Assembly (NCBI GenBank): GCA_013361475.1
Contig: JABFYB010000150.1
Location: 1 to 41,007 of the forward strand
Direction: 5' to 3'
Origin: Hamadaea sp.
GTDB taxonomy: Bacteria > Actinomycetota > Actinomycetes > Mycobacteriales > Micromonosporaceae
DNA length: 41,007 bases
Shown in pieces: positions 9,387 through 29,554 of this stretch. The notes beneath the pieces are model-generated. The model searched no databases. It was not told the DNA's origin and saw nothing but the letters and a program-made list of their open reading frames with translations. Made by a program: the position numbers and the translations under genes. Within the stretch, counting starts at the first letter, position 1, and each line of letters begins with the position of its first letter.

Positions 9387-10074
9387 GCGCGTCCTGGTCG
9401 TCATCCCGGCGTTCAACGAGGCGGGGGCCATCGCCGGAGTCATCGACGAAGTGCGGGGTGAACTGCCGGGAATCGACGTCCTGGTGGTCGACGACGGCTC
9501 GGCCGACACCACCGTGGTCGAGGCGCGCAAAGCCGGCGCGCTCGTCGCCCGGCTCCCCTACAACCTCGGCGTCGGGGGCGCCCGGCGGCTCGGTTTCCGC
9601 TACGGGCTGGACCACGACTACGACGTGGTCATCCAGTTCGACGCCGACGGACAGCACGATCCCCGCTACATTCCGCAGCTCGTCGACGCCCTCGACACCG
9701 CCGACGTGGTGATCGGCGCCCGCTTCGCCGGAGAGGGCGACTACCGCGTACGCGGGCCGCGGGCCTGGGCGATGTCGTTGCTGTCGGCGGTGCTCTCCCG
9801 GGTCGCGAAGTCCCGGTTGACCGACACGACGTCGGGGTTCCGGGCAGCCAACCGCAGGGGCATCGACCTGTACGCCCAGTGGTTCCCCGTCGAGTACCTC
9901 GGCGACACGGTCGAGACGATCGTGCAGGCGGTCCGGGGCGGGCTGACCGTCCGCCAGGTCCCGGTCGCCATGCGCGCCCGGGTCGCGGGCAAGGCGAGCC
10001 ACTCCCCCGTCAAGGCGACGGTCTATCTCGGGCGATCCTTCGCGGTGCTCCTGCTCGCCCTGGTCCGGCGCTGA
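9373..10074 (+). CDS. family 2 glycosyltransferase, polyprenyl-phosphate sugar transferase type
   Basis: 233 residues, GT2 fold, close in form to dolichyl/polyprenyl-phosphate mannosyl- or glucosyltransferases: VVIPAFNEAGAIAGVI near the start, the acidic VVDDGSAD, LPYNLGVGGARRLGFRYG, the metal-binding QFDADGQHDP, and the TSGFRAANRRG segment. The sugar and acceptor cannot be told from sequence. I chose the ATG at 9373 over GTG 9364 because the AAGG at 9357-9360 would be only three bases from the GTG. It overlaps the DUF2304 gene by 14 bases, and the next glycosyltransferase starts one base after its stop. Confidence 0.85.
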   Translation: MISGKRVLVVIPAFNEAGAIAGVIDEVRGELPGIDVLVVDDGSADTTVVEARKAGALVARLPYNLGVGGARRLGFRYGLDHDYDVVIQFDADGQHDPRYIPQLVDALDTADVVIGARFAGEGDYRVRGPRAWAMSLLSAVLSRVAKSRLTDTTSGFRAANRRGIDLYAQWFPVEYLGDTVETIVQAVRGGLTVRQVPVAMRARVAGKASHSPVKATVYLGRSFAVLLLALVRR

Positions 10075-13359: not shown

Positions 13360-14871
13360 TCAGGACGCGGCCGTCAGCGCCTCGAGCAGATCCTTCGCAC
13401 TGGCGCAGCGGTCGAAGAGCGGGCCGACGACACGCTTGGTGCCCCGCTCGGGCTCCAGCATCGGCACGCGGACCAACGACTCGCGGCCGACGTCGAAGAT
13501 GACGGAGTCCCAGCTGGCGGCGACCACTTCGGACGCGTACTGGGCGAGGCAGCGGCCCCGGAAGTAGGCCCGGGTGTCCTCCGGCGGCTCCGTCATGGCG
13601 CGGCGGACGTCCTCCTCGCGGAGCAACGTCTTCATCGCGCCCCGGGCGACCAGCCGGTGGTAGAGACCCTTCTCCTGGCGGACGTCGGCGTACTGGAGGT
13701 CGACGAGGTGCAGCTTCGGCGAGGCCCAGCCGAGGTTCTCCCGCTCGCGGTAGCCCTCCAGGAGCCGGAGCTTGGCGACCCAGTCGAGTTCGTCGGCGCA
13801 CAGCATCGGATCGCGGCCCAGCTTGTCCAGCACGGCTTCCCACCGGTCCAGGACGTCCGCCGTCTGGTCGTCCAGGCCGCGGCTGTCCATGAAGGCCCGT
13901 GCCCGCTCGTAGTACGCCCACTGGACGTCCAGGGCGGTGAGGCGACGGCCGTCGCGCAGGCGTACGCGATGGGTCAGCGACGGGTCGTGACTGACCGCGC
14001 GCAGCTCGGCCACCGGGTCGGCGATGCTGAGGTCCGGGGTGAGCGCCTTCTCCTCGATCATCGTGAGGATGAGGGCGGTCGTGCCGACCTTCAGGTAGGT
14101 GGAGATCTCCGAGAGGTTGGCGTCACCGATGATCACGTGCAGCCGCCGGTACTTGTCGGCGTCGGCGTGCGGCTCGTCGCGGGTGTTGATGATCGGCCGC
14201 TTGAGGGTGGTCTCCAGACCGACCTCGACCTCGAAGAAGTCGGCGCGCTGGGAGACCTGGTAGCCGGCCTGCGAGCCGTCGGCGCCGATGCCCACCCGGC
14301 CGGCGCCGCAGACCACCTGCCGGGTGACGAAGAACGGCGTCAGGTAGGTGACGATCTCGGCGAACGGCGTCTGCCGCTTCATGAGGTAGTTCTCGTGCGC
14401 GCCGAAGCTAGCGCCCTTGTTGTCGGTGTTGTGCTTGTAGAGATGGATCGGCGGCGCGCCGGGGATCGTGCCGGCCCGGCGGGCGCCCTCGGCCATCACG
14501 CGCTCACCGGCCTTGTCCCAGAGGACGACGTCGAGCGGGTTGGTCACCTCGGGCGTGGAGTACTCCGGGTGGGCGTGGTCGACGTAGAGGCGGGCGCCGT
14601 TGGTGAGGATGACGTTCGCCAGGCCCAGGTCCTCGTCGGCGAGCGCCTCGGCGGGGTCGAAGACGGCGCCGGTGTAGGTGAAGCCGCGGGCGTCGCGCAG
14701 CGGCGACTCCTCCTCGTAGTCCCAGCGGGCGCGGCCGCCCTTGGTCAGCTCGGGTCGTGCGCCGTAGGCGTTGACTACCTGAGAGGAGGTCACCATCGGG
14801 TTGGCTTGAGGCTGTCCGGGCACGCTGATGCCGTACTCGACCTCAGTCCCCATGATCCGGCGCACTGTCAT
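13360..14871 (-). CDS. dop: depupylase/deamidase of Pup, Dop
   Basis: 503 residues, a PafA paralogue. Dop removes Pup from proteins and, where Pup ends in Gln, converts it to Glu. Seen here: the [10 protein letters not shown] nucleotide-binding motif near the N-terminus, a long insertion before the core (about residues 35-80, the Dop-loop region absent from PafA), [19 protein letters not shown] with Asp98 in the catalytic position, [18 protein letters not shown] and [17 protein letters not shown]. Because Pup here already ends in Glu, depupylation is the likelier job. ATG 14871 has TAGGCT 7 bases upstream; a terminator separates it from mpa, so it has its own transcript. Confidence 0.95.
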
Positions 14872-14878
14872 ATGACTG

Positions 14879-14884
14879 AGCCTA
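14879..14884 (-). promoter_or_regulatory. -10 box TAGGCT of dop
   Basis: TAGGCT on the minus strand, 7 bases before the dop ATG. Confidence 0.6.
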
Positions 14885-14938
14885 GACGGTGTCCAGGCGA
14901 TCGCACTCCCCGCTACCGGTCCGTGGCACTGCGCACGC

Positions 14939-14979
14939 AAAAAATCCGGCCCGGCCGCCACGCGGGCGGCCGGGCCGGA
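14939..14979 (-). terminator. intrinsic terminator of mpa
   Basis: Perfect 15-bp G+C stem (14945-14959 with 14965-14979), 5-base loop, followed on the minus strand by six T (complement of 14939-14944). It lies ten bases after the mpa stop. Confidence 0.9.
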
Positions 14980-14989
14980 CAGGTGCGCC

Positions 14990-16756
14990 TTACAGGTACT
15001 GGCCGGTGTTGGTGGCGGTCTCGATCGACCGGCCGGCCTCGGTGCCCTTGCCGCCGGAGACGAGCGTGCGGATGTACACGATCCGCTCGCCCTTCTTGCC
15101 GGAGATCCGGGCCCAGTCGTCGGGGTTGGTGGTATTGGGCAGGTCCTCGTTCTCCCGGAACTCGTCGACGCAGGCGTCCAGTAGGTGCTGGAGCCGCATA
15201 CCCTTGCGCCCGGAGGAGAGGAACTCCTTGATGGCCATCTTCTTGCCCCGGTCCACGATGTTCTGGATCATCGCGCCGGAGTTGAAGTCCTTGAAGTACA
15301 GGACTTCCTTGTCACCGTTGGCGTAGGTGACCTCGAGGAAGCGGTTCTCCTCGGTCTCGGAGTACATGCGCAGGACGACCGCGCTGATCATCGCGTGCAC
15401 GCACGCCTCGGCCGAACCGCCGTGCTCGGCCAGGTCGTCCGGGTGCAACGGCAGGCCTTCGACGATGTACTTCGTGAAAATGTCCCGGGCCGCCTCGGCG
15501 TCCGGCCGCTCGATCTTGATCTTGACGTCCAGGCGCCCGGGGCGCAGGATCGCCGGGTCGATCATGTCCTCGCGGTTGGAGGCGCCGATGACGATGACGT
15601 TCTCCAGACCTTCCACACCGTCGATCTCGGACAGCAGCTGCGGGACGATCGTGTTCTCCACATCGGAGGAGACACCGGAACCACGGGTGCGGAACACGGA
15701 GTCCATCTCGTCGAAGAACACGATGACCGGCGTGCCCTCGGAGGCCTTCTCCCGGGCCCGCTGGAAGATCAGCCGGATGTGCCGCTCGGTCTCGCCGACA
15801 TACTTGTTGAGCAGCTCGGGGCCCTTGATGTTGAGGAAGTAGCTGGTCTGCCGCTCCTCGCCCCGCTTCTCCGCGATCTTCTTCGCCAGGGAGTTGGCGA
15901 CCGCCTTGGCGATCATCGTCTTGCCGCACCCGGGCGGGCCGTAGAGCAGCACGCCCTTCGGCGGGCGCAGGTGGTGCTCACGGAACAGCTCGGCGTGCAG
16001 GAAGGGCAGCTCGACGGCGTCGCGGATCTGCTCGATCTGGTTGGAGAGGCCGCCGATGTCGGTGTAGTCGACGTCGGGCACCTCCTCCAGGACGAGCTCC
16101 TCGACCTCGCTCTTCGGGATCCGCTCGTACGCGTAGGCCGAACGGGGCTCGATCATGAGCGAGTCGCCGGCTCGCAGCGGGGCGTCGATGAGACCCTCCG
16201 CCAGGAAGACGATGCGCTCCTCGTCGGCGTGCGAGATGACCAGTGCCCGGTCGCCGCCCTCGAGCAGCTCCTTGAGCATGACGACCTCACCGCTGCGCTC
16301 GAAGCCGAGCGCGTCGACGATGTTCAAGGCGTCGTTGAGCAGCACCTCTTGACCACGCTGCAGGGCCGACACGTCCAGCGAGGGCGAGACGGCGACACGC
16401 AGCTTGCGTCCCCCGGTGAAGACGTCGACCGTGCCGTCCTCATGCCGGGTCAGGAAGATCCCATAGCCGCTGGGCGGTTGCGCCAGCCGGTCGATCTCCT
16501 CCTTGAGGGTCACGATCTGGGCCCGCGCCTCCTTGAGCGTGGCGACCAGTCGCTCGTTGTTCTCCGTGAGCCTGGCCAGCTGAGCCTGAGTCGCGGCGAG
16601 CCGCTCCTCCAGCTGGCGAACATGACGAGGGCTCTCAGACACCTTGCGCCGCAGCAGGGCGAGTTCCTCTTGAAGGAACGCGACCTGCGTGGAGAGATCG
16701 TTGGCCTCCTTCTCCCACCGTGCGGCGCGCGCATCCGCGTCGTCGCTGCGTGCCAC
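14990..16756 (-). CDS. mpa: proteasome-activating AAA+ ATPase Mpa/ARC
   Basis: 588 residues. A hexameric unfoldase that binds Pup with its N-terminal coiled coils and feeds the substrate into the 20S core. The N-terminal 90 residues form a heptad-rich coiled coil (from [20 protein letters not shown] on), then the OB domains, then the AAA module with Walker A GPPGCGKT, Walker [11 protein letters not shown] and the sensor/Arg-finger region around LRPGRLD. The protein ends GQYL, the HbYX-type tail that docks on PrcA. GTG 16756 follows GGGAGGTGG at ideal distance; the frame extends upstream but without merit. A candidate -10 TAGTGT lies near 16800. Confidence 0.96.
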
Positions 16757-16887
16757 GTCCCACCTCCCCGGGGGTTGAGCCAGGTTGTGCCTTAACACTA
16801 GCCGCTGTATGCCCCGATGAAACCCTCCCGACACGGCCATACGCAATCGTGATCTCACCGGCTGCGACGGCCTTCGCGACCGTGGAG

Positions 16888-16893
16888 TACCGT
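16888..16893 (+). promoter_or_regulatory. -10 box TACCGT of the ferredoxin gene
   Basis: TACCGT, 6 bases before GTG 16900; it fixes that start against upstream in-frame alternatives. Confidence 0.55.
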
Positions 16894-16899
16894 CGAGGC

Positions 16900-17220
16900 G
16901 TGGCAGACAGCGAACTTCAGGTCTGGGTGGATCAGGATCTGTGCACCGGTGACGGCTTGTGCGTGCAATACGCCCCGGAGGTCTTCGAGTTCGACGTCGA
17001 CGGGCTGGCCTACGTCAAGGACGAGGCCGGTGAGTTGCAGCTGGCCAAGGACGCCCGCGTCGCGGTGCCCGCGAACCTGCGGCTGGAGATCCTCGACGCG
17101 GCCAAGGAATGCCCCGGCGAGTGCATCCACGTGCGCCGGGCCGCCGACGCGTCGGCCGAGCCGCTGACCGAGGACGAGCGCGACGAGATCCGGTCTCAGC
17201 TCGCGGCCGGAGCGGTCTGA
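16900..17220 (+). CDS. small 3Fe-4S/4Fe-4S ferredoxin
   Basis: 106 residues. The cluster motif is Cys15-x2-Asp18-x2-Cys21 (CTGDGLC) with the distal Cys71 in ECPGEC, and [15 protein letters not shown] between, as in single-cluster ferredoxins that serve cytochromes P450 and other oxidoreductases. Asp18 stands where a fourth Cys would be; archaeal ferredoxins with Asp there can hold either 3Fe-4S or 4Fe-4S clusters. An additional Cys75 lies close to Cys71. The C-terminal 25 residues are acidic and unusual for the shortest members. It diverges from mpa with 143 bases between starts; no partner oxidoreductase is adjacent. Confidence 0.85.
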
Positions 17221-17224
17221 AAAA

Positions 17225-19860
<2,636 letters not shown>

Positions 19861-20021: not shown

Positions 20022-20027
20022 TACGGT
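20022..20027 (+). promoter_or_regulatory. -10 box TACGGT of the RecB-like nuclease gene
   Basis: TACGGT, 7 bases before ATG 20035; supports that start over GTG 20026. Confidence 0.5.
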
Positions 20028-20034
20028 GAGGGCC

Positions 20035-20904
20035 ATGACAACGCCGCTGCCCACCCTCTCCCCCTCTCGGGCCGCCGATTTCAAGACCTGTCCCCTGCTC
20101 TACCGGCTCCGCAGCATCGACCGGCTGCCCGAGCAACCGACGGTGGACCAGGCCCGGGGGACGTTGGTGCACGCGGTGCTGGAGCGGTTGTTCGACCTGC
20201 CGGCCACGAGCCGGACGCTGGCGGAGGCGGCGCTGCTGGTCCGGCCGGCCTGGGAGGCGCTGCTGGCGGAGGCGCCCGAGCTGGGCACGCTCGCCGTCGA
20301 CGACGGCTTCCTCGACGAGGCCACCCAGCTGCTGCAGGGCTACTTCACAGTGGAGGATCCGACCCGGCTCGAACCGGCCGAGCGGGAGACCCTGATCGAG
20401 GCCACCCTGGACGACCAGCTGCTCATCCGGGGCTATGTGGACCGCCTTGACGTCTCCCCCGCCGGTGACCTGCGGGTGGTCGACTACAAGACCGGCGGCG
20501 CGCCGCGGGAGGCGTTCGAGGCGCGGGCGTTGTTCCAGCTCAAGTTCTACGCGCTGGTGCTGTGGCGGACGCGGGGCATCGTGCCGCGCGTGCTGCGTCT
20601 GGTCTACCTGAAGGACCGGGAGGTCTGCGACTACACGCCCGACTCCGAGGAGCTGGAGCGGTTCGAGAAGACGCTGGTCGCCCTGTGGCGGGCGATCGAG
20701 CAGGCGGCGCAGGCCCGCGACTTCCGGCCGAAGCCGAGCCGGCTGTGCAACTGGTGCTCGCACCAGGCGCTGTGCCCGTCGTTCGGCGGCACCCCGCCGC
20801 CGTTCCCGGAGGAGGCCGCGATCACCACCGCCATCGACGCGCGTACCGCCCGGTCGGCGGCCCAGCGTGGCGTCGACGGCGAACGCCTCGCCGACGTCCT
20901 GTAA
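20035..20904 (+). CDS. RecB-family PD-(D/E)XK nuclease with Fe-S cysteines
   Basis: 289 residues, a stand-alone RecB/Cas4-type exonuclease domain. The motifs are GTLVHAVLERLF (the His of the nuclease core), GYVDRLDVSPAGDLRVVDYKTG (Asp and D-x-K catalytic residues), and a Gln in the motif after. Four Cys, one near the N-terminus (FKTCPLLY) and three near the C-terminus (CNWCSHQALC), are arranged as in the iron-sulphur clamp of AddB and Cas4. A role in DNA end processing is likely from family knowledge but no CRISPR or RecBCD partner is nearby. It points the same way as the regulator and ABC genes but has its own leaderless promoter. Confidence 0.85.
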   Translation: MTTPLPTLSPSRAADFKTCPLLYRLRSIDRLPEQPTVDQARGTLVHAVLERLFDLPATSRTLAEAALLVRPAWEALLAEAPELGTLAVDDGFLDEATQLLQGYFTVEDPTRLEPAERETLIEATLDDQLLIRGYVDRLDVSPAGDLRVVDYKTGGAPREAFEARALFQLKFYALVLWRTRGIVPRVLRLVYLKDREVCDYTPDSEELERFEKTLVALWRAIEQAAQARDFRPKPSRLCNWCSHQALCPSFGGTPPPFPEEAAITTAIDARTARSAAQRGVDGERLADVL

Positions 20905-20941
20905 CGCCCCGAGTACGGGGAATGCGCTGGCGCGAGCCCGG

Positions 20942-20947
20942 TAGTCT
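20942..20947 (+). promoter_or_regulatory. -10 box TAGTCT of the response regulator gene
   Basis: TAGTCT, 6 bases before GTG 20954. Confidence 0.6.
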
Positions 20948-20953
20948 GCCCTC

Positions 20954-21625
20954 GTGACGTCCGGGCCGGTGCGGGTGCTGCTCGCCGACGATCAGCCGAT
21001 GCTCCGCAGCGGCCTGCGCAGCGTGCTCGGCGCGTACGCCGACATCCACGTCGTCGGCGAGGCGGGGGACGGCGTCGAGGCGGTTGAGCTGGCCCGGCGA
21101 CTTCTGCCGGACGTGTTGCTGGTCGAGGCGCGGCTGCCCCGGCGCGACGGAGTCGCCGTGGCCCGGGAGGTCGCCGTGGCACGCCTGCCGGTCGGCGTGC
21201 TCGTGCTGACCGGCGAACCCGTCGGCGATCACGCGGTCGGCGCCTTGCGGGCGGGCGCCCGGGGATTGGTGGCACAGGACGCTCCGGCCGAGGATCTGGT
21301 CGGGGCGGTACGCGCGGTGGCCGCAGGGCACGCCGCGATCTCCCCGGTGCTGCTGGGGCAGCTGCTGGCCCAGTTCGCCGCGCTGCCGGTCGCCGCGGCG
21401 GACGGCGTACCGGAGGGACTGCCGGGGCTGACCGATCGGGAGCGGGAGGTGCTGACCCAGGTCGCCCGGGGCTTGTCGAACGCCGAGATCGCCCGGGTTC
21501 TCACCGTCAGCGAGACGACTGTGAAGACGCATGTGGGGCATGTGCTCACCAAGCTCAAGTTGCGTGACCGTGTCCAGGCGGTCGTCTACGCGTACGAGTC
21601 GGGCTTGGTGAAACCGGGCGAGTAG
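20954..21625 (+). CDS. LuxR/NarL-type response regulator lacking the phosphoacceptor Asp
   Basis: 223 residues. An N-terminal receiver domain (residues 6-120) and a C-terminal LuxR helix-turn-helix (about 155-215: LTDREREVLTQVARGLSNAEIARVL, then SETTVKTHVGHVLTKL). The acidic pair Asp12-Asp13 is kept, but the phosphorylation site reads VLLVEARLP, with Glu58 in place of Asp, and the conserved Lys of the switch region is Gln108 (LVAQDAP). Thr86 is kept. No histidine kinase is adjacent. Glu at this position often mimics the phosphorylated state, so the protein may be constitutively active or respond to something other than a kinase. It is followed, 86 bases on, by the first of two ABC transporter operons, which it may control. 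Confidence 0.92.
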   Translation: MTSGPVRVLLADDQPMLRSGLRSVLGAYADIHVVGEAGDGVEAVELARRLLPDVLLVEARLPRRDGVAVAREVAVARLPVGVLVLTGEPVGDHAVGALRAGARGLVAQDAPAEDLVGAVRAVAAGHAAISPVLLGQLLAQFAALPVAAADGVPEGLPGLTDREREVLTQVARGLSNAEIARVLTVSETTVKTHVGHVLTKLKLRDRVQAVVYAYESGLVKPGE

Positions 21626-21654: not shown

Positions 21655-21679
21655 CGGGCAATTTAGCGGAGTTTGCCCG
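21655..21679. promoter_or_regulatory. inverted repeat upstream of the first ABC operon
   Basis: CGGGCAA (21655-21661) and TTGCCCG (21673-21679), a perfect 7-bp inverted repeat 33 bases before the ATPase start. The same half sites CGGGCA and TGCCCG recur before the second ABC operon. Confidence 0.45.
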
Positions 21680-21711: not shown

Positions 21712-22536
21712 ATGAGCAGCGAACCCACTCAGCCGGCCGCCGCACGCGCCGAGGGCATCTGGAAGGTGTACGGGCACGGCGAAGCGCAGGTGCACGCGCT
21801 CCGCGGCGTGACCACAGCGTTCGACCGGGGACGGTTCACCGCGATCATGGGGCCGTCCGGCTCGGGCAAGTCGACCTTGATGCACTGCCTGGCCGGCCTG
21901 GACACGGTCGACGCCGGGCAGGTGTTCATCGGCGACACCCAGGTGACCGGACTGGGCGACGCCGGGCTGACCAAGCTGCGGCGAGAGAAGGTCGGGTTCA
22001 TCTTCCAGCAGTTCAACCTGCTCCCGACGCTGACCGCCGAGGAGAACATCCTGCTGCCCATGGCGATCTCCGGGCGCAAACCCGACCCGCAGTGGTACGA
22101 CCTGGTGATCAAGACGGTCGGCCTGGGTGACCGGCTGAGTCACCGGCCCACCGAGCTGTCCGGCGGCCAGCAGCAGCGGGTGGCGTGCGCCCGCGCGCTC
22201 GTCGCCCGGCCTGAGGTGATCTTCGCCGACGAGCCCACCGGCAACCTCGACTCCCGGTCCAGCGGCGAGGTCCTGCACTTCCTGCGCAGCTCGGTGCACG
22301 ACTTCGGGCAGACCATCGTGATGGTCACCCACGATCCCCGGGCCGCCTCGTACGCCGACCGCGTGATCTTCCTCGCCGACGGCTCCATCGTGGACGAGCT
22401 GGACAAGCCGACCGAGGGCAGCGTGCTGGACAAGATGAAGAGCCTCGACCCGGCCGAACTCCTGGCGACCCGGCCGGAGACCGACTCGGCGGGGCGGGCC
22501 GACCTGGACGCCGCGACCGGTGGCGCCGATGTTTAA
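21712..22536 (+). CDS. ABC transporter ATP-binding protein, MacB/LolD type (copy 1)
   Basis: 274 residues. Walker A GPSGSGKST, the Q-loop FIFQQFNLLPTLTAEENILLP typical of the MacB/LolD branch, signature LSGGQQQR, Walker B VIFADEPTGNLDS and the H-loop VMVTHDP are all intact. It would power the FtsX-like permease encoded next. No obvious ribosome site precedes ATG 21712; the in-frame upstream start at 21673 lies inside the inverted repeat and is less likely. Its stop overlaps the permease start by eight bases. It closely matches the ATPase at 25283 along its whole length (roughly three quarters identical by eye), so the two arose by duplication. Confidence 0.92.
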   Translation: MSSEPTQPAAARAEGIWKVYGHGEAQVHALRGVTTAFDRGRFTAIMGPSGSGKSTLMHCLAGLDTVDAGQVFIGDTQVTGLGDAGLTKLRREKVGFIFQQFNLLPTLTAEENILLPMAISGRKPDPQWYDLVIKTVGLGDRLSHRPTELSGGQQQRVACARALVARPEVIFADEPTGNLDSRSSGEVLHFLRSSVHDFGQTIVMVTHDPRAASYADRVIFLADGSIVDELDKPTEGSVLDKMKSLDPAELLATRPETDSAGRADLDAATGGADV

Positions 22537-25069
22537 GGCGATGCTGCGCGGCCTGCTCGCGCACAAACTGCGGCTGCTGCTGTCGGCGCTGGCCATCATC
22601 CTCGGCACGATGTTCATGTCCGGCGCGTTCATCGCCGGGGACACCATCGCCCAAGGCTTCACCGGGCTGTTCTCGACCATCAACTCCGACCTCGACGTCC
22701 AGGTCACCGGCAAGTCGGAGGTCGGCGACCAGCAGTCCGGAGTGGTCACCGCGACGGTGCCGCAGCGCGTCGCGGACGCCGTCGGCCAGGTCGACGGGGT
22801 AGCGAAGGCGACGCCGCAGGTCGCCTCGGACGGCGCCCGGGTGATCGGCGGCAACGGCAAGGTGATCCCGACCTCCGGGCCGCCGCGCCTGGGCGTGGGC
22901 TGGACCGGCGAGGACGGTCTCCTGGAACTGCGCGACGGGACCGGGCCGACCCAGCCGAACCAGGTCGCGCTGTCGGCGAACCTCGCCGAGCAGGCCGGCA
23001 AGAAGGTCGGCGACCAGGTCCAGGTCATCACGTTGCAGCCGGAGAAGACCTTCACCGTCGCCGGGATCTTCGGCTACGAGGGCGGCCGCGACTCGCTGGC
23101 CGGGGAGATGACGGTCGCCTTCACCATGCCGGTCGCCCAGGAGCTCATGCTGGGCAAGCCCGGCGAGTACACCAGCGTCGACGTCAAGGCCGCGAGCGGG
23201 GTCGGCGACGCCGAGCTGCGCGACCGGATCGCTGCGGTGGTCGGCCCGGGCTACGACGTACGCACCAACAAGGAGGCGACGGACGCGGCCGACGACGGCA
23301 TCCAGCCCTTCATCACGGTCCTCAAGACCGGGCTCACCGTCTTCGCGCTGATCGCCTTGATCGTCGCCATCTTCCTGATCTTCAACACCTTCTCGATCCT
23401 GGTCGCGCAGCGTACGCGTGAACTGGCGCTCTATCGTTCGTTCGGCGCCTCGAAGCAGCAGGTCCTCCGCTCGGTGCTGACCGAGTCCGCGCTGCTGGGC
23501 CTGGTCGCGGCGCTCGTCGGGCTGATCGTCGGCTGCGGCGTCGGCTGGCTGGGCAAGAAGGGCCTGGAGGCGGCGTCCAACACCAACCTTCCCGTGAGCG
23601 GCATCGTGGTGAAGCCCTACGTCGTCATCGTGACGCTGCTCGTGGGCGTCCTCGTCACAGTGGTCTCGGCACTGGTGCCGGCGTTGCGGGCGTCGCGCGT
23701 ACCGCCGATCGCGGCGATGCGGGACGCCGCGGTGCCGGACAAGCCGCTGCGAAAGCTCACCATCGCCGGGCTGATCGTGCTGCTCGTCGGCGTCGCCTTC
23801 CTCGTGCTGCGGCTGACCAAGGTGTGGAAGGACCCGCTCTGGCTGATCCTCGGCGGTGGGGCGCTGCTGGTGTTCATCGGCGTCGTCATGCTGGCTCCCG
23901 TGCTCAGCCGGCCGGTGACCCGGGCACTCGGCGCGGTGTTCGGCACGTCGGTCCCGGCCCGGCTCGGCACCCGCAACACCGGGCGCAACCCTCGGCGTAC
24001 GGCGTTGACCGCGGCGGCGCTGATGATTGGCGTGACCCTGGCGACCGCGGGCGGCGTCTTCGCGTCGTCGGCCAAGGCCGGGCTCACCGACGTCTTCACC
24101 AACGACGTCAAGGCGCAGCTGATCGTGCAGGTCGACTTCGCGGCCGGGGCGACCGCCGGATTCGACCCGGCGATGCAGAAGCAGATCAGGGAGATCCCGG
24201 GGGTCTCTCAGGCGGTCGCGTTCCGGACCGACGGCGCGCGCGTCGGCGGGCAGACCGCCCAGGTGCTCTCCGGCGATCCGGTGGCGGCGGCAGAGATCTT
24301 CACGCTGAAGGCGGCCTCCGGCGACATCCGGCCCCTGGCGGCCGGGGAGATCATCCTCGACGACGCGACCGCGAAGCGGCTCGCCGCGACGGCCGGGTCG
24401 ACGGTCGACATCGTCACCGCCCGGGGCGGGCCGAAACAGGAAAAGGTCGTGGCCACCCTGGAACCCTCCAGCGCCTGGTCCGGCCCGCTGCTCAACGAGG
24501 CCGACGCGGCCGGGTTCACCTCGCCGAACGCCCAGGCGGCCTATGTGCAGGTCGCCTCGGACGATCAGGTCGAACCGGTGCGTACGCAGCTGGAGTCGCT
24601 GTTCGCCGACAACAAGGAAGTCACGGTCGTCGACCAGAGCCAGCTGCTCAGCACGGTCACCAGCGTCCTCGACATCGTCCTGGTCATCCTCAACATCATG
24701 CTCGGCCTCGCGATCGTCGTGGCCCTGCTCGGCGTGGTGAACACCCTGCTGCTGTCGATCTACGAGCGGACCCGGGAGATCGGCATGATCCGCGCGATCG
24801 GGCTGAGCCGCGGCTCCACCGCGCGGATGATCACCGTCGAGTCGATCCTGATCTCCGTGTTCGGCGCGCTGCTCGGCATGGTCGTCGGCGTGGGCCTCGG
24901 CGTCGCCGCGGTGCAGATCTTCGGCGGGGACTACCTGAAGCTCACGATCCCGTGGGGCTACCTGATCGCGACGCTGATCCTCGCGATCGTGGCCGGCATT
25001 CTGGCGGCCGTCCTGCCGGCGATCCGGGCCGGCCGCCTCAACGTGCTGCAGGCCATCGCGTACGAGTGA
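22529..25069 (+). CDS. FtsX-like permease of the MacB superfamily (copy 1)
   Basis: 846 residues with two FtsX-type repeats: a first membrane helix near residues 16-38 followed by a large extracytoplasmic domain, three helices (about 265-390), then helices, a second large extracytoplasmic domain and three helices at the C-terminus ending LNVLQAIAYE. This twelve-helix-or-fewer layout fits actinobacterial ABC permeases that move lipids, peptides or drive extracellular proteins mechanically, rather than import. The start is ATG 22529, because from there it aligns without gap to the paralogue start at 26068 (MFKAMLRGLLAHKLR against MLRATLKSLLARKLR); the earlier GTG 22520 would add three residues. 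No MacA-type adaptor lies nearby. Confidence 0.9.
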   Translation: MFKAMLRGLLAHKLRLLLSALAIILGTMFMSGAFIAGDTIAQGFTGLFSTINSDLDVQVTGKSEVGDQQSGVVTATVPQRVADAVGQVDGVAKATPQVASDGARVIGGNGKVIPTSGPPRLGVGWTGEDGLLELRDGTGPTQPNQVALSANLAEQAGKKVGDQVQVITLQPEKTFTVAGIFGYEGGRDSLAGEMTVAFTMPVAQELMLGKPGEYTSVDVKAASGVGDAELRDRIAAVVGPGYDVRTNKEATDAADDGIQPFITVLKTGLTVFALIALIVAIFLIFNTFSILVAQRTRELALYRSFGASKQQVLRSVLTESALLGLVAALVGLIVGCGVGWLGKKGLEAASNTNLPVSGIVVKPYVVIVTLLVGVLVTVVSALVPALRASRVPPIAAMRDAAVPDKPLRKLTIAGLIVLLVGVAFLVLRLTKVWKDPLWLILGGGALLVFIGVVMLAPVLSRPVTRALGAVFGTSVPARLGTRNTGRNPRRTALTAAALMIGVTLATAGGVFASSAKAGLTDVFTNDVKAQLIVQVDFAAGATAGFDPAMQKQIREIPGVSQAVAFRTDGARVGGQTAQVLSGDPVAAAEIFTLKAASGDIRPLAAGEIILDDATAKRLAATAGSTVDIVTARGGPKQEKVVATLEPSSAWSGPLLNEADAAGFTSPNAQAAYVQVASDDQVEPVRTQLESLFADNKEVTVVDQSQLLSTVTSVLDIVLVILNIMLGLAIVVALLGVVNTLLLSIYERTREIGMIRAIGLSRGSTARMITVESILISVFGALLGMVVGVGLGVAAVQIFGGDYLKLTIPWGYLIATLILAIVAGILAAVLPAIRAGRLNVLQAIAYE

Positions 25070-25113
25070 GTTCTTGGCGCTGCCGGGAACGGGGCGCCCG
25101 GCCAGGCGTGACT

Positions 25114-25151
25114 CAGGGGCTTCCCCGAGATCGTCTCGGGGACGGCCCCTG
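25114..25151 (+). terminator. hairpin between the two ABC operons
   Basis: Two-step stem: 25114-25120 with 25145-25151 (7 bp) and 25123-25130 with 25134-25141 (8 bp) around a 3-base loop. It follows the permease stop by 44 bases; there is no T run. It probably ends or attenuates the first ABC operon's transcript. Confidence 0.6.
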
Positions 25152-25198
25152 GCGCGGATCTGGGGTCCCTTTCCACCCGTGGTCTGACGTTTCCCGCG

Positions 25199-25251
25199 TG
25201 CCCGGCCGGAACGATGAGAGTCGCCGGCCGGGCACCGCCTTGCCCGGCCGG
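25199..25251. promoter_or_regulatory. three copies of an 11-mer upstream of the second ABC operon
   Basis: TGCCCGGCCGG occurs at 25199-25209 and 25241-25251, and inverted at 25224-25234, so two overlapping palindromes form; the pair 25224-25251 has perfect 11-bp arms and a 6-base gap. Contains the CGGGCA/TGCCCG half sites also found before the first ABC operon. Confidence 0.5.
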
Positions 25252-25282: not shown

Positions 25283-26068
25283 ATGACAATCACCGCACAC
25301 CCGCCCGTCCGCGTGGCCGTCGCCGCGCGGGCGGTGGACGTCTGGAAGGTCTACGGCTCCGGCGAGGCTCAGGTCGTGGCGTTGCGGGGGGTCAGCATGG
25401 AGGTGGCCGCCGGCCGCTTCACCGCGATCATGGGGCCGTCCGGCTCCGGCAAGTCGACGCTGATGCACTGCCTCGCCGGGCTGGACGCGGTCACCCGGGG
25501 CGAGGTCCACGTCGGCGACACGAAGCTGACCGGCCTCGGCGACGCCGGGCTCACCAAGCTGCGCCGCGAGCAGGTCGGCTTCATCTTCCAGCAGTTCAAC
25601 CTGCTGCCCACGCTGACCGCCGAGGAGAACATCCTGCTGCCGCTGGCGATCGCCGGGCGCAAGCCCGACCGCGAGTGGTTCGACACGGTGATCGACACGG
25701 TCGGGCTGCGGGACCGGCTCGGCCACCGGCCGAGCCAGCTCTCCGGCGGCCAGCAGCAACGCGTCGCCTGCGCCCGCGCGCTCGTGTCGCGGCCCGAGGT
25801 GGTCTTCGCGGACGAGCCGACGGGCAACCTCGACTCGCGCTCCGGCGCCGAGGTGCTGTCCTTCCTCCGGGCGTCGGTACGCGACCACGGGCAGACGATC
25901 GTGATGGTGACGCACGACCCGACCGCCGCGTCCTATGCGGACCGGGTCGTGTTCCTCGCCGACGGGCGCATCGTCAGCGAGCTGACCGAGCCGACGCCGC
26001 AGAAGGTGCTGGACGCGATGCAGTCGCTGGACCGGCTCGTGGCCGAGACCGCCGGGGCGGAGTCCTGA
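25283..26068 (+). CDS. ABC transporter ATP-binding protein, MacB/LolD type (copy 2)
   Basis: 261 residues, paralogue of the ATPase at 21712. Walker A GPSGSGKST, Q-loop FIFQQFNLLPTL, signature LSGGQQQR and Walker B VVFADEPTGNLDS are intact. ATG 25283 has GGGGGA eight bases upstream; an earlier in-frame ATG at 25214 lies within the inverted repeats. The ATPase stop and the permease start share one base (TGATG), so production is coupled. The two ATPases differ mostly at the N-terminus and in the last forty residues, which may set partner choice. Confidence 0.92.
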   Translation: MTITAHPPVRVAVAARAVDVWKVYGSGEAQVVALRGVSMEVAAGRFTAIMGPSGSGKSTLMHCLAGLDAVTRGEVHVGDTKLTGLGDAGLTKLRREQVGFIFQQFNLLPTLTAEENILLPLAIAGRKPDREWFDTVIDTVGLRDRLGHRPSQLSGGQQQRVACARALVSRPEVVFADEPTGNLDSRSGAEVLSFLRASVRDHGQTIVMVTHDPTAASYADRVVFLADGRIVSELTEPTPQKVLDAMQSLDRLVAETAGAES

Positions 26069-28617
26069 TGCTGCGCGCCACCCTGAAGAGCCTGCTGGCC
26101 CGCAAGCTGCGGCTCGCCCTGTCCGCCATGGCGGTCATCCTCGGCGTCATGTTCGTCGCCGGGTCCTTCGTGCTCACCGACACGCTCGGGCGCTCCTTCG
26201 AGAGCATGTTCGACTCGGCGTACGCGCACACCGACGTGGTCGTCCAGCCGAAGCCGAAGGTGGACGGCCAGATCGCCGGTGGCGACTCGCCCGTCCCCGG
26301 TGTCCTGACGGCCGACGACAAGAAGGCGATCGAGGCGATCCCCGGGGTCGCCGCCGTGCACGCCATCGCCGACGGCGAGGGTGCTCGCGTGGTCGGCAGC
26401 GACGGCAAGGTCGTCACGACGGTCGGCCCGCCCCGCCTCGGCGGGAACTGGCTCGACGGCGTCGGCGGCGCGGAGATCCGCGACGGGCACGCTCCGCAGA
26501 ACGACAACCAGGTCGTGCTCAACGTCGAGCAGGCCAAGAAGGCCGGTCTGAAGGTCGGCGACCAGGTGACGGTGCTGACGCCGGGCGGCAAGCGCACCTT
26601 CGAGCTGGCCGGCACCTTCGGGTACGCCGGCGGCCTCGACGGGCGCGGTGGCGTACTGGAGGTCCGGTTCACCGACAAGGTCGCCCAGGAGCTGATGCTG
26701 GGCCAGGCCGGGGCGTACACCTCGTTCGACGTGGACGCCGCGCCCGGCCAGAGCCCCGAGGCGGTACGCGACGCGATCGCCGCCCGGACCGGCGGGGCGT
26801 ACGAGGTCAAGACAGGCGCCGAGCTGGCCAAGACCATCGCCGACCAGTTCAAGTCGGTGCTGGACGGGCTGAACAAGGTGCTGCTCGGGTTCGGGGCGGT
26901 CGCCCTGTTCGTCGGGACCTTCCTGATCCTCAACATCTTCTCGATCACGGTCGCCCAGCGGACCAAGGAGCTGGCGCTGACCCGGGCGCTCGGCGCCAGC
27001 CGCCGCCAGATGATCGGCTCGGTGCTGGCCGAGGCGATCGTCGTCGGCCTGACCGGCTCGCTGCTGGGCCTGGCCGCCGGCCTCGGCGTGGGCTGGGTGC
27101 TGGCGATGGTCGCGGCCAACGTCTCCGGGCTGATCCTCGCCCCGATCGCGCTCCCGGCCTCGGCCGTGATCGCGGCGTTCTCGGTCGGCCTCGTGATCAC
27201 CGTCCTGGCGGCGCTGCTGCCGGCGCTGCGGGCCAGCCGGGTGCCGCCGATCGCGGCGCTGCAGGAGGTCGCGACGCCGGACCGGCCGCTGACGAAGCTG
27301 TCGGTGAGTGGCGGGCTGGTGACCGCGGCCGGCGTGGCGCTCATGGCGTACGGCCTGACCGGCGACGGTCACCTGTGGCCGATGCTCGGCGGCGTGATGT
27401 TCGCCTTCATCGGGGTGGCGCTGCTCAGCCCGCTGGTGGGCAAGCCCGTGGTGGCCGCGCTCGGCCGAATCTTCTCCTGGTCGGTCGCGGGCAAGCTGGG
27501 CCGGCTCAACTCCGGCCGCAACCCACGGCGTACGGCGATCACCGCGGCGGCGCTCATGATCGGCATCGCGCTGATCACCGCGGCGAGCACGGTGCTCACC
27601 TCGGGCGACCAGAGCCTGCGGGGCGCGGCCGCTCGGGAGGTCCACGCCGATCTGCTGGTCACCGGCCAGAACAGCACGGACGTGATGCCGACGTTCGCCC
27701 ACTCCACCATGGACGCCATTCGGAAGATCCCCGGCGTCGCGTCCGCCTCGAGCGAGGTCTACGCGCGGGCGCTGGTCGGCAAGCACGGCCACGGTGTGTC
27801 GGTCGTGGACGACCTGCCGGCGATGGCCGCCCAGTTCAGCCTGAAGCCGTCCGGCTCGAACGCGGGCACCCTCAGCGCCCTCGGCCCGGCCGACGCCATT
27901 GTGGACGCCGACACGGCGGTCGAGGAGGGCGTACGCGTCGGCGACGCCGTCCGGGTGGTGCTGCCCAAGGGCGACCCGGTGGAGTTCCACATCGCCGCCA
28001 TCTACGCCGAGAACGACTTCTACGGCGGGTATCTGCTGGGCTCGGCCGCGCTGGAGCATCTCGTGAGCCCCGATCCGTCCGTCGGCACGATCACGCTGGC
28101 CGACGGCGCCTCCGAATCGGCGGTCCGCGACCAGATCAGCCGGCTCCTCGCCGACAACCCCGAGGTCAGCGTGATGACCAAGGGCGAGTACCTGGACCAG
28201 GCGTCGGGCCAGATCGGGACGCTGCTGACGATGGTCACGATCCTGCTGGCGCTGGCCATCCTGATCGCGGTCCTCGGCGTCATCATCACCCTGTGGCTGT
28301 CGGTCCTGGAGCGTACGCGTGAACTGGGCCTGCTCCGGGCGATCGGGCTCGGCCGGGCGGCCACCATGCGGATGATCACGGTGGAGGCCGTCGTCATCAC
28401 GCTCTTCGGGACGCTGCTCGGCCTCGCCACCGGCGTCGGGATGGGCGCGGCGGTCGTCCGGTCGCTCAAGGGCGAGGGCATCACCGACTTCGCGGTGCCG
28501 TGGTCGCAGCTGACCGCGTACCTCGTGGCCGGGGCGCTGGTCGGCGTGTTCGCCGCGGTCCTGCCCTCGATCAAGGCGGCCCGCACGGACGTGCTCAAGG
28601 CGATCGCCTACGAGTGA
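26068..28617 (+). CDS. FtsX-like permease of the MacB superfamily (copy 2)
   Basis: 849 residues with the same layout as copy 1: N-terminal helix (about residues 16-38), large extracytoplasmic domain, three helices, central helix pair, second large extracytoplasmic domain, three C-terminal helices and the end TDVLKAIAYE. The membrane parts are much more alike between the copies than the extracytoplasmic domains, which suggests different ligands or partners. The ATG at 26068 overlaps the ATPase stop. The open frame continues upstream through the first operon but that part is the shadow of the other frame. A strong terminator follows 31 bases after the stop. Confidence 0.9.
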   Translation: MLRATLKSLLARKLRLALSAMAVILGVMFVAGSFVLTDTLGRSFESMFDSAYAHTDVVVQPKPKVDGQIAGGDSPVPGVLTADDKKAIEAIPGVAAVHAIADGEGARVVGSDGKVVTTVGPPRLGGNWLDGVGGAEIRDGHAPQNDNQVVLNVEQAKKAGLKVGDQVTVLTPGGKRTFELAGTFGYAGGLDGRGGVLEVRFTDKVAQELMLGQAGAYTSFDVDAAPGQSPEAVRDAIAARTGGAYEVKTGAELAKTIADQFKSVLDGLNKVLLGFGAVALFVGTFLILNIFSITVAQRTKELALTRALGASRRQMIGSVLAEAIVVGLTGSLLGLAAGLGVGWVLAMVAANVSGLILAPIALPASAVIAAFSVGLVITVLAALLPALRASRVPPIAALQEVATPDRPLTKLSVSGGLVTAAGVALMAYGLTGDGHLWPMLGGVMFAFIGVALLSPLVGKPVVAALGRIFSWSVAGKLGRLNSGRNPRRTAITAAALMIGIALITAASTVLTSGDQSLRGAAAREVHADLLVTGQNSTDVMPTFAHSTMDAIRKIPGVASASSEVYARALVGKHGHGVSVVDDLPAMAAQFSLKPSGSNAGTLSALGPADAIVDADTAVEEGVRVGDAVRVVLPKGDPVEFHIAAIYAENDFYGGYLLGSAALEHLVSPDPSVGTITLADGASESAVRDQISRLLADNPEVSVMTKGEYLDQASGQIGTLLTMVTILLALAILIAVLGVIITLWLSVLERTRELGLLRAIGLGRAATMRMITVEAVVITLFGTLLGLATGVGMGAAVVRSLKGEGITDFAVPWSQLTAYLVAGALVGVFAAVLPSIKAARTDVLKAIAYE

Positions 28618-28708: not shown

Positions 28709-29554
28709 GTGAGTTTGCGGGAGAGATCACGTCAGCTGGTCGAGTCCCGGGCCTTCCAGTACTTCATCACCGCCGTCATCCTCGGGAACGCGGCGACCCT
28801 CGGCCTGGAGACCTCGCCTGTTCTGCACGAGCGGTACGGCTCGGCGCTCCACGTCATCGACGTCACCGCGTTGACGATCTTCGTCGTCGAGCTGCTGCTG
28901 CGCCTGTTCGTGCACGGGCTGCGGTTCTTCCGCGATCCGTGGAACGTGTTCGACCTCGCGATCGTCTCGGTCGCCTTGGCCCCGGCGTCGTCGGCGTTCA
29001 CGGTGCTGCGGGCGATGCGGATCCTGCGGGTGCTCCGCCTGGTCTCGGTGGTGCCGAGCATGCGCCGGGTCGTGTCCGCGCTGCTGACCGCGATGCCGGG
29101 CATGGTCTCCATCGCCGGGTTGCTGGTCCTCGTGCTCTACGTCGCGGGCGTGATGGCCACTAAGCTGTTCGCGCACACCGCGCCGGAGTGGTTCGGCTCG
29201 CTCGGGCAGTCGATCTTCACGCTGTTCCAGATCATGACCGGCGACAGCTGGTCCGAAGTGGCCCGCGAGGTCATGGCCAAGCAGCCGCTCGCCTGGATCT
29301 TCTTCGTCGGCTTCCTGGTGGTCTCCGCGTTCACCGTGCTCAACCTGTTCATCGCGGTCGCGGTCAGCGCCATGGAGGCCGAGCACCGGGCCGAGCAGTC
29401 GGCCGCGGAATCGGCTGCCGAATCGACTGACGGATCGGCTGAGGGGCCGACGCCGATCCCGGCCCAGGACCGGGCGGTGCTGGCCGAAGTACGCGCACTG
29501 CGGGCCGAACTGCGGGAGCTGCGCGCGGAACTGAGCGAACGGCAGCCCGTCTAG
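28709..29554 (+). CDS. voltage-gated cation channel, NaChBac-like, with TGDSW filter
   Basis: 281 residues with the six-helix layout of bacterial voltage-gated sodium channels, which work as tetramers. The S4 sensor carries four Arg at three-residue steps (R101, R104, R107, R110, RAMRILRVLR). The pore loop reads FTLFQIMTGDSWSE (170-183), so the filter is T177-G178-D179-S180-W181 where the best-known sodium channels have TLESW. Loss of Leu and Glu-to-Asp should change ion choice; by analogy with calcium-type filters this could favour divalent ions, but this is inference. The S6 helix (FTVLNLFIAVAVSAME) runs into an Ala/Glu-rich coiled coil (about 230-280). Its TAG shares CTAG with the stop of the convergent HAD gene. 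Confidence 0.85.
   Translation: MSLRERSRQLVESRAFQYFITAVILGNAATLGLETSPVLHERYGSALHVIDVTALTIFVVELLLRLFVHGLRFFRDPWNVFDLAIVSVALAPASSAFTVLRAMRILRVLRLVSVVPSMRRVVSALLTAMPGMVSIAGLLVLVLYVAGVMATKLFAHTAPEWFGSLGQSIFTLFQIMTGDSWSEVAREVMAKQPLAWIFFVGFLVVSAFTVLNLFIAVAVSAMEAEHRAEQSAAESAAESTDGSAEGPTPIPAQDRAVLAEVRALRAELRELRAELSERQPV

Follow-up and report, generated by a model that had tools for sequence, protein, structure and literature searches.

The 41,007-nucleotide stretch of Hamadaea sp. DNA analysed here (in the following: the window) encodes a LuxR-type response regulator which carries a glutamate at the position of the phosphoaccepting aspartate and is followed by two ABC transporter operons. The locus raises the question of how such a regulator arose and how it may act on its neighbouring genes without a partner kinase.

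The regulator and its receiver in Hamadaea

The regulator gene and the relevant sites within it are located as follows:

20954-21625, plus strand: gene (GTG start) of a 223-aa response regulator of the NarL/LuxR type, carrying a pseudo-receiver (Pfam Response_reg and GerE)
20975-21310, plus strand: receiver domain (residues 8-119; Pfam), non-catalytic as judged by sequence; 60% of the 54 positions invariant in kinase-linked orthologs are kept in Hamadaea
21125-21127, plus strand: codon GAG of Glu58, phosphoacceptor position; Asp in 81/81 kinase-linked orthologs
21266-21268, plus strand: codon TTG of Leu105, aromatic (Tyr/Phe) switch position; Phe in 81/81 kinase-linked orthologs, Leu in 4/4 Hamadaea
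21275-21277, plus strand: codon CAG of Gln108, switch Lys position; Lys in 81/81 kinase-linked orthologs, Gln in 4/4 Hamadaea
21428-21592, plus strand: GerE/LuxR helix-turn-helix DNA-binding domain (residues 159-213; Pfam); 37/37 positions invariant in kinase-linked orthologs are kept

According to the Pfam matches (Response_reg, E-value 3e-16; GerE, 9.5e-21) the gene product combines the N-terminal receiver and the C-terminal helix-turn-helix of the NarL/FixJ (LuxR-type) family, its closest solved relatives being NarL, VraR/LiaR, DevR and DesR, and the AF2 model (mean pLDDT 89.9) confidently predicts an intact receiver fold. Only Thr86 is kept of the four residues canonical for NarL/FixJ receivers (acceptor Asp, switch Lys, Thr and aromatic residue). 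The regulator can be regarded as a NarL/FixJ member by descent and architecture, but not as a canonical receiver; a recognisable receiver in which the acceptor Asp is missing along with further catalytic residues corresponds to a pseudo-receiver or aspartate-less receiver (ALR).

The exchanges reported in the original prediction, Glu58 in place of the acceptor Asp and Gln108 in place of the switch Lys, were confirmed, with coordinates, reading frame and residues in agreement. The window regulator contains the motifs ADDQ (D12, codon GAC; D13, GAT), LLVEARLP (E58), VLVLTGEP (T86, ACC) and GLVAQDAP (Q108). From the family consensus (MDIRMP, LTTFDL, GFLAKD) it departs at three functional positions, Asp58Glu, Lys108Gln and Phe105Leu, the last being a third altered switch residue that had been overlooked.

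Four Hamadaea genomes were compared, namely those of the window (G000), G002, G003 and H. tsunoensis (G001, locus L020). At residues 12, 13, 58, 86 and 108 the window and G003 read DDETQ, G002 reads DAETQ and H. tsunoensis DDE-Q, with Ile or Ser at position 86 depending on the alignment. Since Glu58, Leu105 and Gln108 are shared by all four genomes, these residues are genus-wide, which does not apply to the acidic pair and Thr86; the predicted retention of Asp12-Asp13 and Thr86 holds for the window but not within the genus (Asp13Ala in G002, no Thr86 in H. tsunoensis). In the alignment with its relatives Glu58 does not stand alone among close relatives with Asp. In other genera Asp at position 58 is the rule, and Glu recurs elsewhere only in lineages that lack the kinase. 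The possibility that Glu58 is a sequencing or assembly artefact was considered with regard to the fragmented window assembly (831 contigs, 88% complete) and was ruled out as barely conceivable, since Glu58 and Gln108 occur in three other, separate assemblies, one of which consists of a single contig.

Pairwise comparison of G002, G003 and the window gives a dN/dS of 0.056-0.077 for the receiver (7 nonsynonymous and 32-40 synonymous differences) and of 0.10-0.16 for the DNA-binding domain. The corresponding receiver values, compared as medians over sequence pairs, are 0.20 in kinase-linked orthologs at comparable dS and about 0.39 in altered sequences outside Hamadaea, which are mostly of the Actinoplanes type. 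According to these values the Hamadaea receiver is under purifying selection; it was altered first and frozen afterwards, and the gene is no pseudogene.

Kinase loss and receiver state among orthologs

Two features upstream of the regulator gene serve to identify the orthologous loci:

20026-20904, plus strand: gene of a RecB/Cas4-like PD-(D/E)XK nuclease (Pfam PDDEXK_1, 3.9e-40), upstream neighbour by synteny and used as a landmark only
20905-20953, no strand assigned: 49-bp junction, occupied in most orthologous loci by a HisKA_3/HATPase_c histidine kinase gene (synteny)

In most Micromonosporaceae and Thermomonosporaceae the locus comprises, in this order, TrmI (divergent), the RecB-like nuclease, the HisKA_3/HATPase_c kinase, the regulator, an ABC ATPase and an FtsX/MacB permease. 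In Hamadaea the kinase is absent and the gap between the nuclease and regulator genes measures 50-130 bp. Because orthologs have the HisKA_3 kinase gene between these two genes, the regulator is understood as an orphan resulting from kinase loss. As originally stated, no histidine kinase is adjacent to it. A search for the family kinase ortholog across the four Hamadaea genomes yielded best matches of 42-47% identity, true orthologs mostly sharing 50% to >90%; a cognate HisKA_3 kinase was found neither next to the window regulator nor elsewhere in the genome, and a relocated kinase was ruled out for all four genomes. Upstream of the locus the minus strand of the window furthermore carries a Pup-proteasome neighbourhood (13360-19856) with a Pup ligase family gene, a proteasomal ATPase (Mpa/ARC type), a TrmI-like methyltransferase and an M50 peptidase.

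The kinase status of 209 non-redundant orthologs, some of whose loci are short or situated at contig ends, was derived from tblastn matches upstream of the regulator and from a kinase HMM applied to six-frame ORFs. At loci without a full-length kinase the HMM recovered fragments only; those classed as kinase-less gave no match in the available DNA except for weak remnants at L275 and L167. One locus (L070, WNZI01000003.1) is titled Vibrio cholerae strain 35D; it is an Arthrobacter-like actinobacterial locus and probably mislabelled or contaminated.

The five catalytic residues (DDDTK) are intact in all orthologs with a kinase (81/81) or a kinase remnant (9/9) and in 58 of the 119 orthologs without a kinase, the other 61 being altered. 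Fisher's test of kinase against receiver state gives P = 3e-18, which is not a real probability since the sequences are related and not independent, so that the counts on the trees weigh more. Kinase-bearing branches account for 59% of the length of the nuclease tree, but none of the 54 changes at the five residues maps to them, and about ten kinase-loss events are placed on the regulator tree; both are single-gene trees with some weak nodes, and counts of origins are approximate.

Altered receivers are found in Hamadaea, in G004 (DDESK), G008 (DNDTK) and G055 (fragment) and in most of the Actinoplanes-type genus g30, and the regulator is missing from the locus in the kinase-less lineages G012, G030, G033 and G041. 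In Micromonospora kinase remnants lie beside intact regulators, which is consistent with a loss of the kinase preceding the change of the receiver. Many kinase-less Micromonospora keep the acceptor Asp; kinase loss therefore does not force its exchange.

Truncated or split kinase remnants, which may mark an early step of this loss, were detected next to intact regulators at the Micromonospora loci L132, L248, L251, L253, L257, L259, L265 and L270; some of them may represent assembly errors or contig ends. In g30 (L211-L240 and L281-L316; 68 genomes) no kinase was detected at the loci that were read, the residues of the acidic pocket have given way to Ala, Pro, Ser, Gly or His, and in some regulators the N-terminal beta1 region is apparently lost or has diverged beyond alignment. 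The kinase-less genus of G004 encodes a regulator with an independent Asp-to-Glu exchange and a retained switch Lys (DDESK; L116, 9504-10157, minus strand), which offers a natural comparison for Hamadaea.

By parsimony, Asp58 changed directly to Glu five times according to the regulator tree and six times according to the nuclease tree, where two of the six may be a single event; all these changes lie in kinase-less lineages. One further clade has Ala, Gly and Glu at the acceptor position. Elsewhere in these proteins 44 of 146 events at Asp positions lead to Glu (19 of 80 on kinase-less branches). The binomials for an excess of Glu at the acceptor give 0.003-0.03 at these observed rates and about 0.1 at the general-matrix rate of 0.45, and are suggestive rather than decisive. 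Across ALRs Glu is the commonest replacement of the acceptor (26%); an Asp-to-Glu exchange alone is often not activating, and the Glu is dispensable in ChxR (PMC4395418). It seems plausible that Glu58 might mimic phospho-Asp in the active state, and the recurrence of Glu is suggestive, though no more, of a constitutively active dimer. The previously proposed locking of the regulator in an active-like state would be compatible with the sequences, whereas the sensing of a different signal, likewise proposed, is neither favoured nor disfavoured by them. The joint loss of Lys108 and Phe105 speaks against a classical activated state, and an active state of this protein would have to do without the standard Thr/Tyr switch.

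Transporter operons and a candidate operator

The region downstream of the regulator gene contains the following features:

21712-22536, plus strand: ABC1, MacB/LolD-type ABC ATPase (Pfam ABC_tran, NCBIfam MacB/LolD-like); no dyad upstream
22520-25069, plus strand: PERM1, duplicated FtsX/MacB_PCD permease (Pfam, NCBIfam)
25112-25129, plus strand: candidate operator CTCAGGGGCTTCCCCGAG upstream of ABC2, a dyad occurring family-wide at ABC promoters
25182-25216, plus strand: conserved promoter-like block GTCTGACG-N23-GATG, aligning with Micromonosporaceae ABC promoters; putative role
25283-26068, plus strand: ABC2, MacB/LolD-type ABC ATPase (Pfam); start re-assigned from a conserved SD-like run and the frame
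26068-28617, plus strand: PERM2, duplicated FtsX/MacB_PCD permease; its ATG overlaps the ABC2 stop (TGATG)

The two MacB-like ABC operons described for this region were recovered by Pfam as MacB/LolD ATPases with FtsX/MacB_PCD permeases, the combination of a LolD/MacB-type ATPase with an FtsX and MacB_PCD permease being that of MacB/LolCDE/FtsX-type ABC exporters. Two such operons follow the regulator in Hamadaea and some other genera including Dactylosporangium, while most Micromonospora loci seen have one. The second operon likely starts at ATG 25283 behind AGGGGGA rather than at ATG 25214 of the automatic ORF, which lies inside the promoter-like block. Directly downstream of it an Ion_trans/PKD-type ion channel gene (28709-29554) was detected, which is conserved in G002 and G003.

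The dyad CTCAGGG-N3..5-CCCTGAG was found with at most one mismatch in the 400 bp preceding an ABC gene at 35 of 109 loci, and the only three other matches in 1.66 Mb all belong to a genus with an inverted regulator. Among these three the match at L122 was converted to the other strand (10056-10074), where the second ABC gene follows it after approximately 95 bp. With at most two mismatches the dyad is present in 58 of 76 kinase-less and 36 of 91 kinase-linked ABC upstream regions, about one being expected per set. A genome search located CTCAGGGNNNNCCCYGAG at one place each in G000 (88% complete), G002, G003 and G006; the only match in the G000 assembly is 25112-25129, which is conserved in G002 and G003. 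Its position and rarity suggest that this site likely serves as the operator of the regulator. A literature search on the dyad sequence returned no relevant regulator.

The dyad also occurs upstream of an ABC gene in L192 (4768-4785) of G012, a genome without the regulator at the locus that represents the sister lineage on the nuclease tree; the dyad may thus serve another factor, unless the regulator was lost only recently.

The binding sites originally proposed at 21655-21679 and 25199-25251 are poorly supported: the former does contain an inverted repeat, whose left arm differs in each congener (G002, G003), and the latter is a GC-rich inverted repeat. The dyad at 25112-25129 is put forward as the conserved candidate operator in their place. 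A search for sigma-70 promoters and terminators was negative, also with respect to a consensus sigma-70 promoter at the block 25182-25216, whose alignment with Micromonosporaceae promoters comprises all rows but that of G003.

Mode of action and relation to known systems

Taken together, we consider it fairly probable that the protein is a pseudo-receiver regulator, orphaned by the loss of its kinase, that controls the adjacent exporters without phosphorylation. Ancestrally it would have formed an ordinary two-component pair with the kinase and governed an ABC exporter operon of the MacB/FtsX type. On the way to Hamadaea the gene of the kinase would have disappeared, and the receiver would have given up the residues for phosphorylation chemistry (Asp58Glu, Lys108Gln) as well as the aromatic switch residue (Phe105Leu), the protein being kept as a phosphorylation-independent DNA-binding regulator. 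Its most likely target would be the single dyad ahead of the second ABC operon, to which it may bind in the absence of phosphate, possibly with Glu58 helping to mimic the active state, and its activity would be set mainly by the amount of protein. This reading builds on the observed absence of the kinase, the residue changes, the continued selection on both domains and the conserved dyad. It is weakened by about half of the kinase-linked ABC promoters lacking a good dyad and by H. tsunoensis having only a two-mismatch site; the dyad of G012 and the kinase-less Micromonospora with Asp likewise count against it.

The main rival, which we regard as unlikely, is a ligand- or partner-gated switch whose remodelled pocket and beta4-alpha4 loop would recognise either another protein or a small molecule, which might be a substrate of the ABC pumps, following the models of JadR1/RedZ or BldM/WhiI. 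It would account for a receiver that was remodelled and then frozen by selection (dN/dS 0.06-0.08) and for the change of the loop from TTFDLDEY to TGEPVGDH, and end-product binding and heterodimers in actinobacteria are presented as precedents in a review (PMC12632262). However, no biosynthetic cluster or partner was identified, and the loop changes may only reflect the loss of kinase docking.

It seems quite improbable that the gene is a remnant heading for loss, as in G055 or in the lineages that have no regulator at the locus. Such losses and fragments do occur at orthologous loci, and altered sequences, most of them of the Actinoplanes type, have a raised receiver dN/dS (about 0.39), but both Hamadaea domains are under strong purifying selection, the frame is open in four genomes and the DNA-binding domain keeps 37/37 sites. 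Still more improbable, to a degree that leaves it little weight, is a normal response regulator that still receives phosphate, be it at a different residue or from a kinase encoded elsewhere: other HisKA_3 kinases are encoded in the genome and Asp12 is kept in 4/4 and Thr86 in 3/4 Hamadaea, but acceptor, Lys and aromatic switch have changed together, and G002 also lacks Asp13.

The proposed phosphorylation-independent regulator resembles CosR/CosS of Campylobacter, in which the role of the regulator outlives the kinase and the acceptor Asp51 of CosR is lost only in lineages lacking CosS (PMC3938529), and HP1043 of Helicobacter, which is phosphorylation-independent (PMC8345958). However, CosR and HP1043 are essential global regulators of the OmpR family with Asp replaced by Asn/Ser, whereas the Hamadaea protein belongs to the NarL family, carries Glu and apparently has one genomic site. 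The acceptor Asp is likewise absent from ALRs such as ChxR, RitR and the plant PRRs; these usually keep the basic residue (70%) and Tyr/Phe (66%), both of which Hamadaea has lost (PMC4395418). BldM, WhiI, RedZ and JadR1 of Streptomyces are also actinobacterial atypical orphan response regulators, but they control development or antibiotic pathways, and the accessible parts of the sources document no kinase-bearing orthologs (PMC4125116, PMC12632262). LiaR/VraR, DesR, DevR and NarL share the two-domain architecture, but have canonical phosphorylated receivers with partner kinases.

The paired loss of kinase and acceptor is thus known, with CosR/CosS as a direct precedent, and Glu-bearing ALRs are common; distinctive here are the unusually complete set of intermediate states and the unusually clear evolutionary history. 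Close orthologs are graded from kinase present through kinase remnant, kinase absent with intact receiver and kinase absent with altered receiver to regulator lost. Since they share a nearly identical DNA-binding domain and, where present, the apparent operator dyad, switching is testable by receiver swaps on one promoter. Pseudo-receivers are common, but a 2025 review names the way in which they are switched, and their convergence on few or many mechanisms, as a major unknown (PMC12632262). It is possible, if doubtful, that the loss of one kinase repeatedly leaves a two-component regulator working as a one-component one, with Glu favoured at the acceptor position, and that in Hamadaea the receiver was then re-optimised and fixed by selection as a new sensor or constitutive clamp on a single operator. 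The family bears on the question of whether Asp-to-Glu is selected or is simply the easiest decay.
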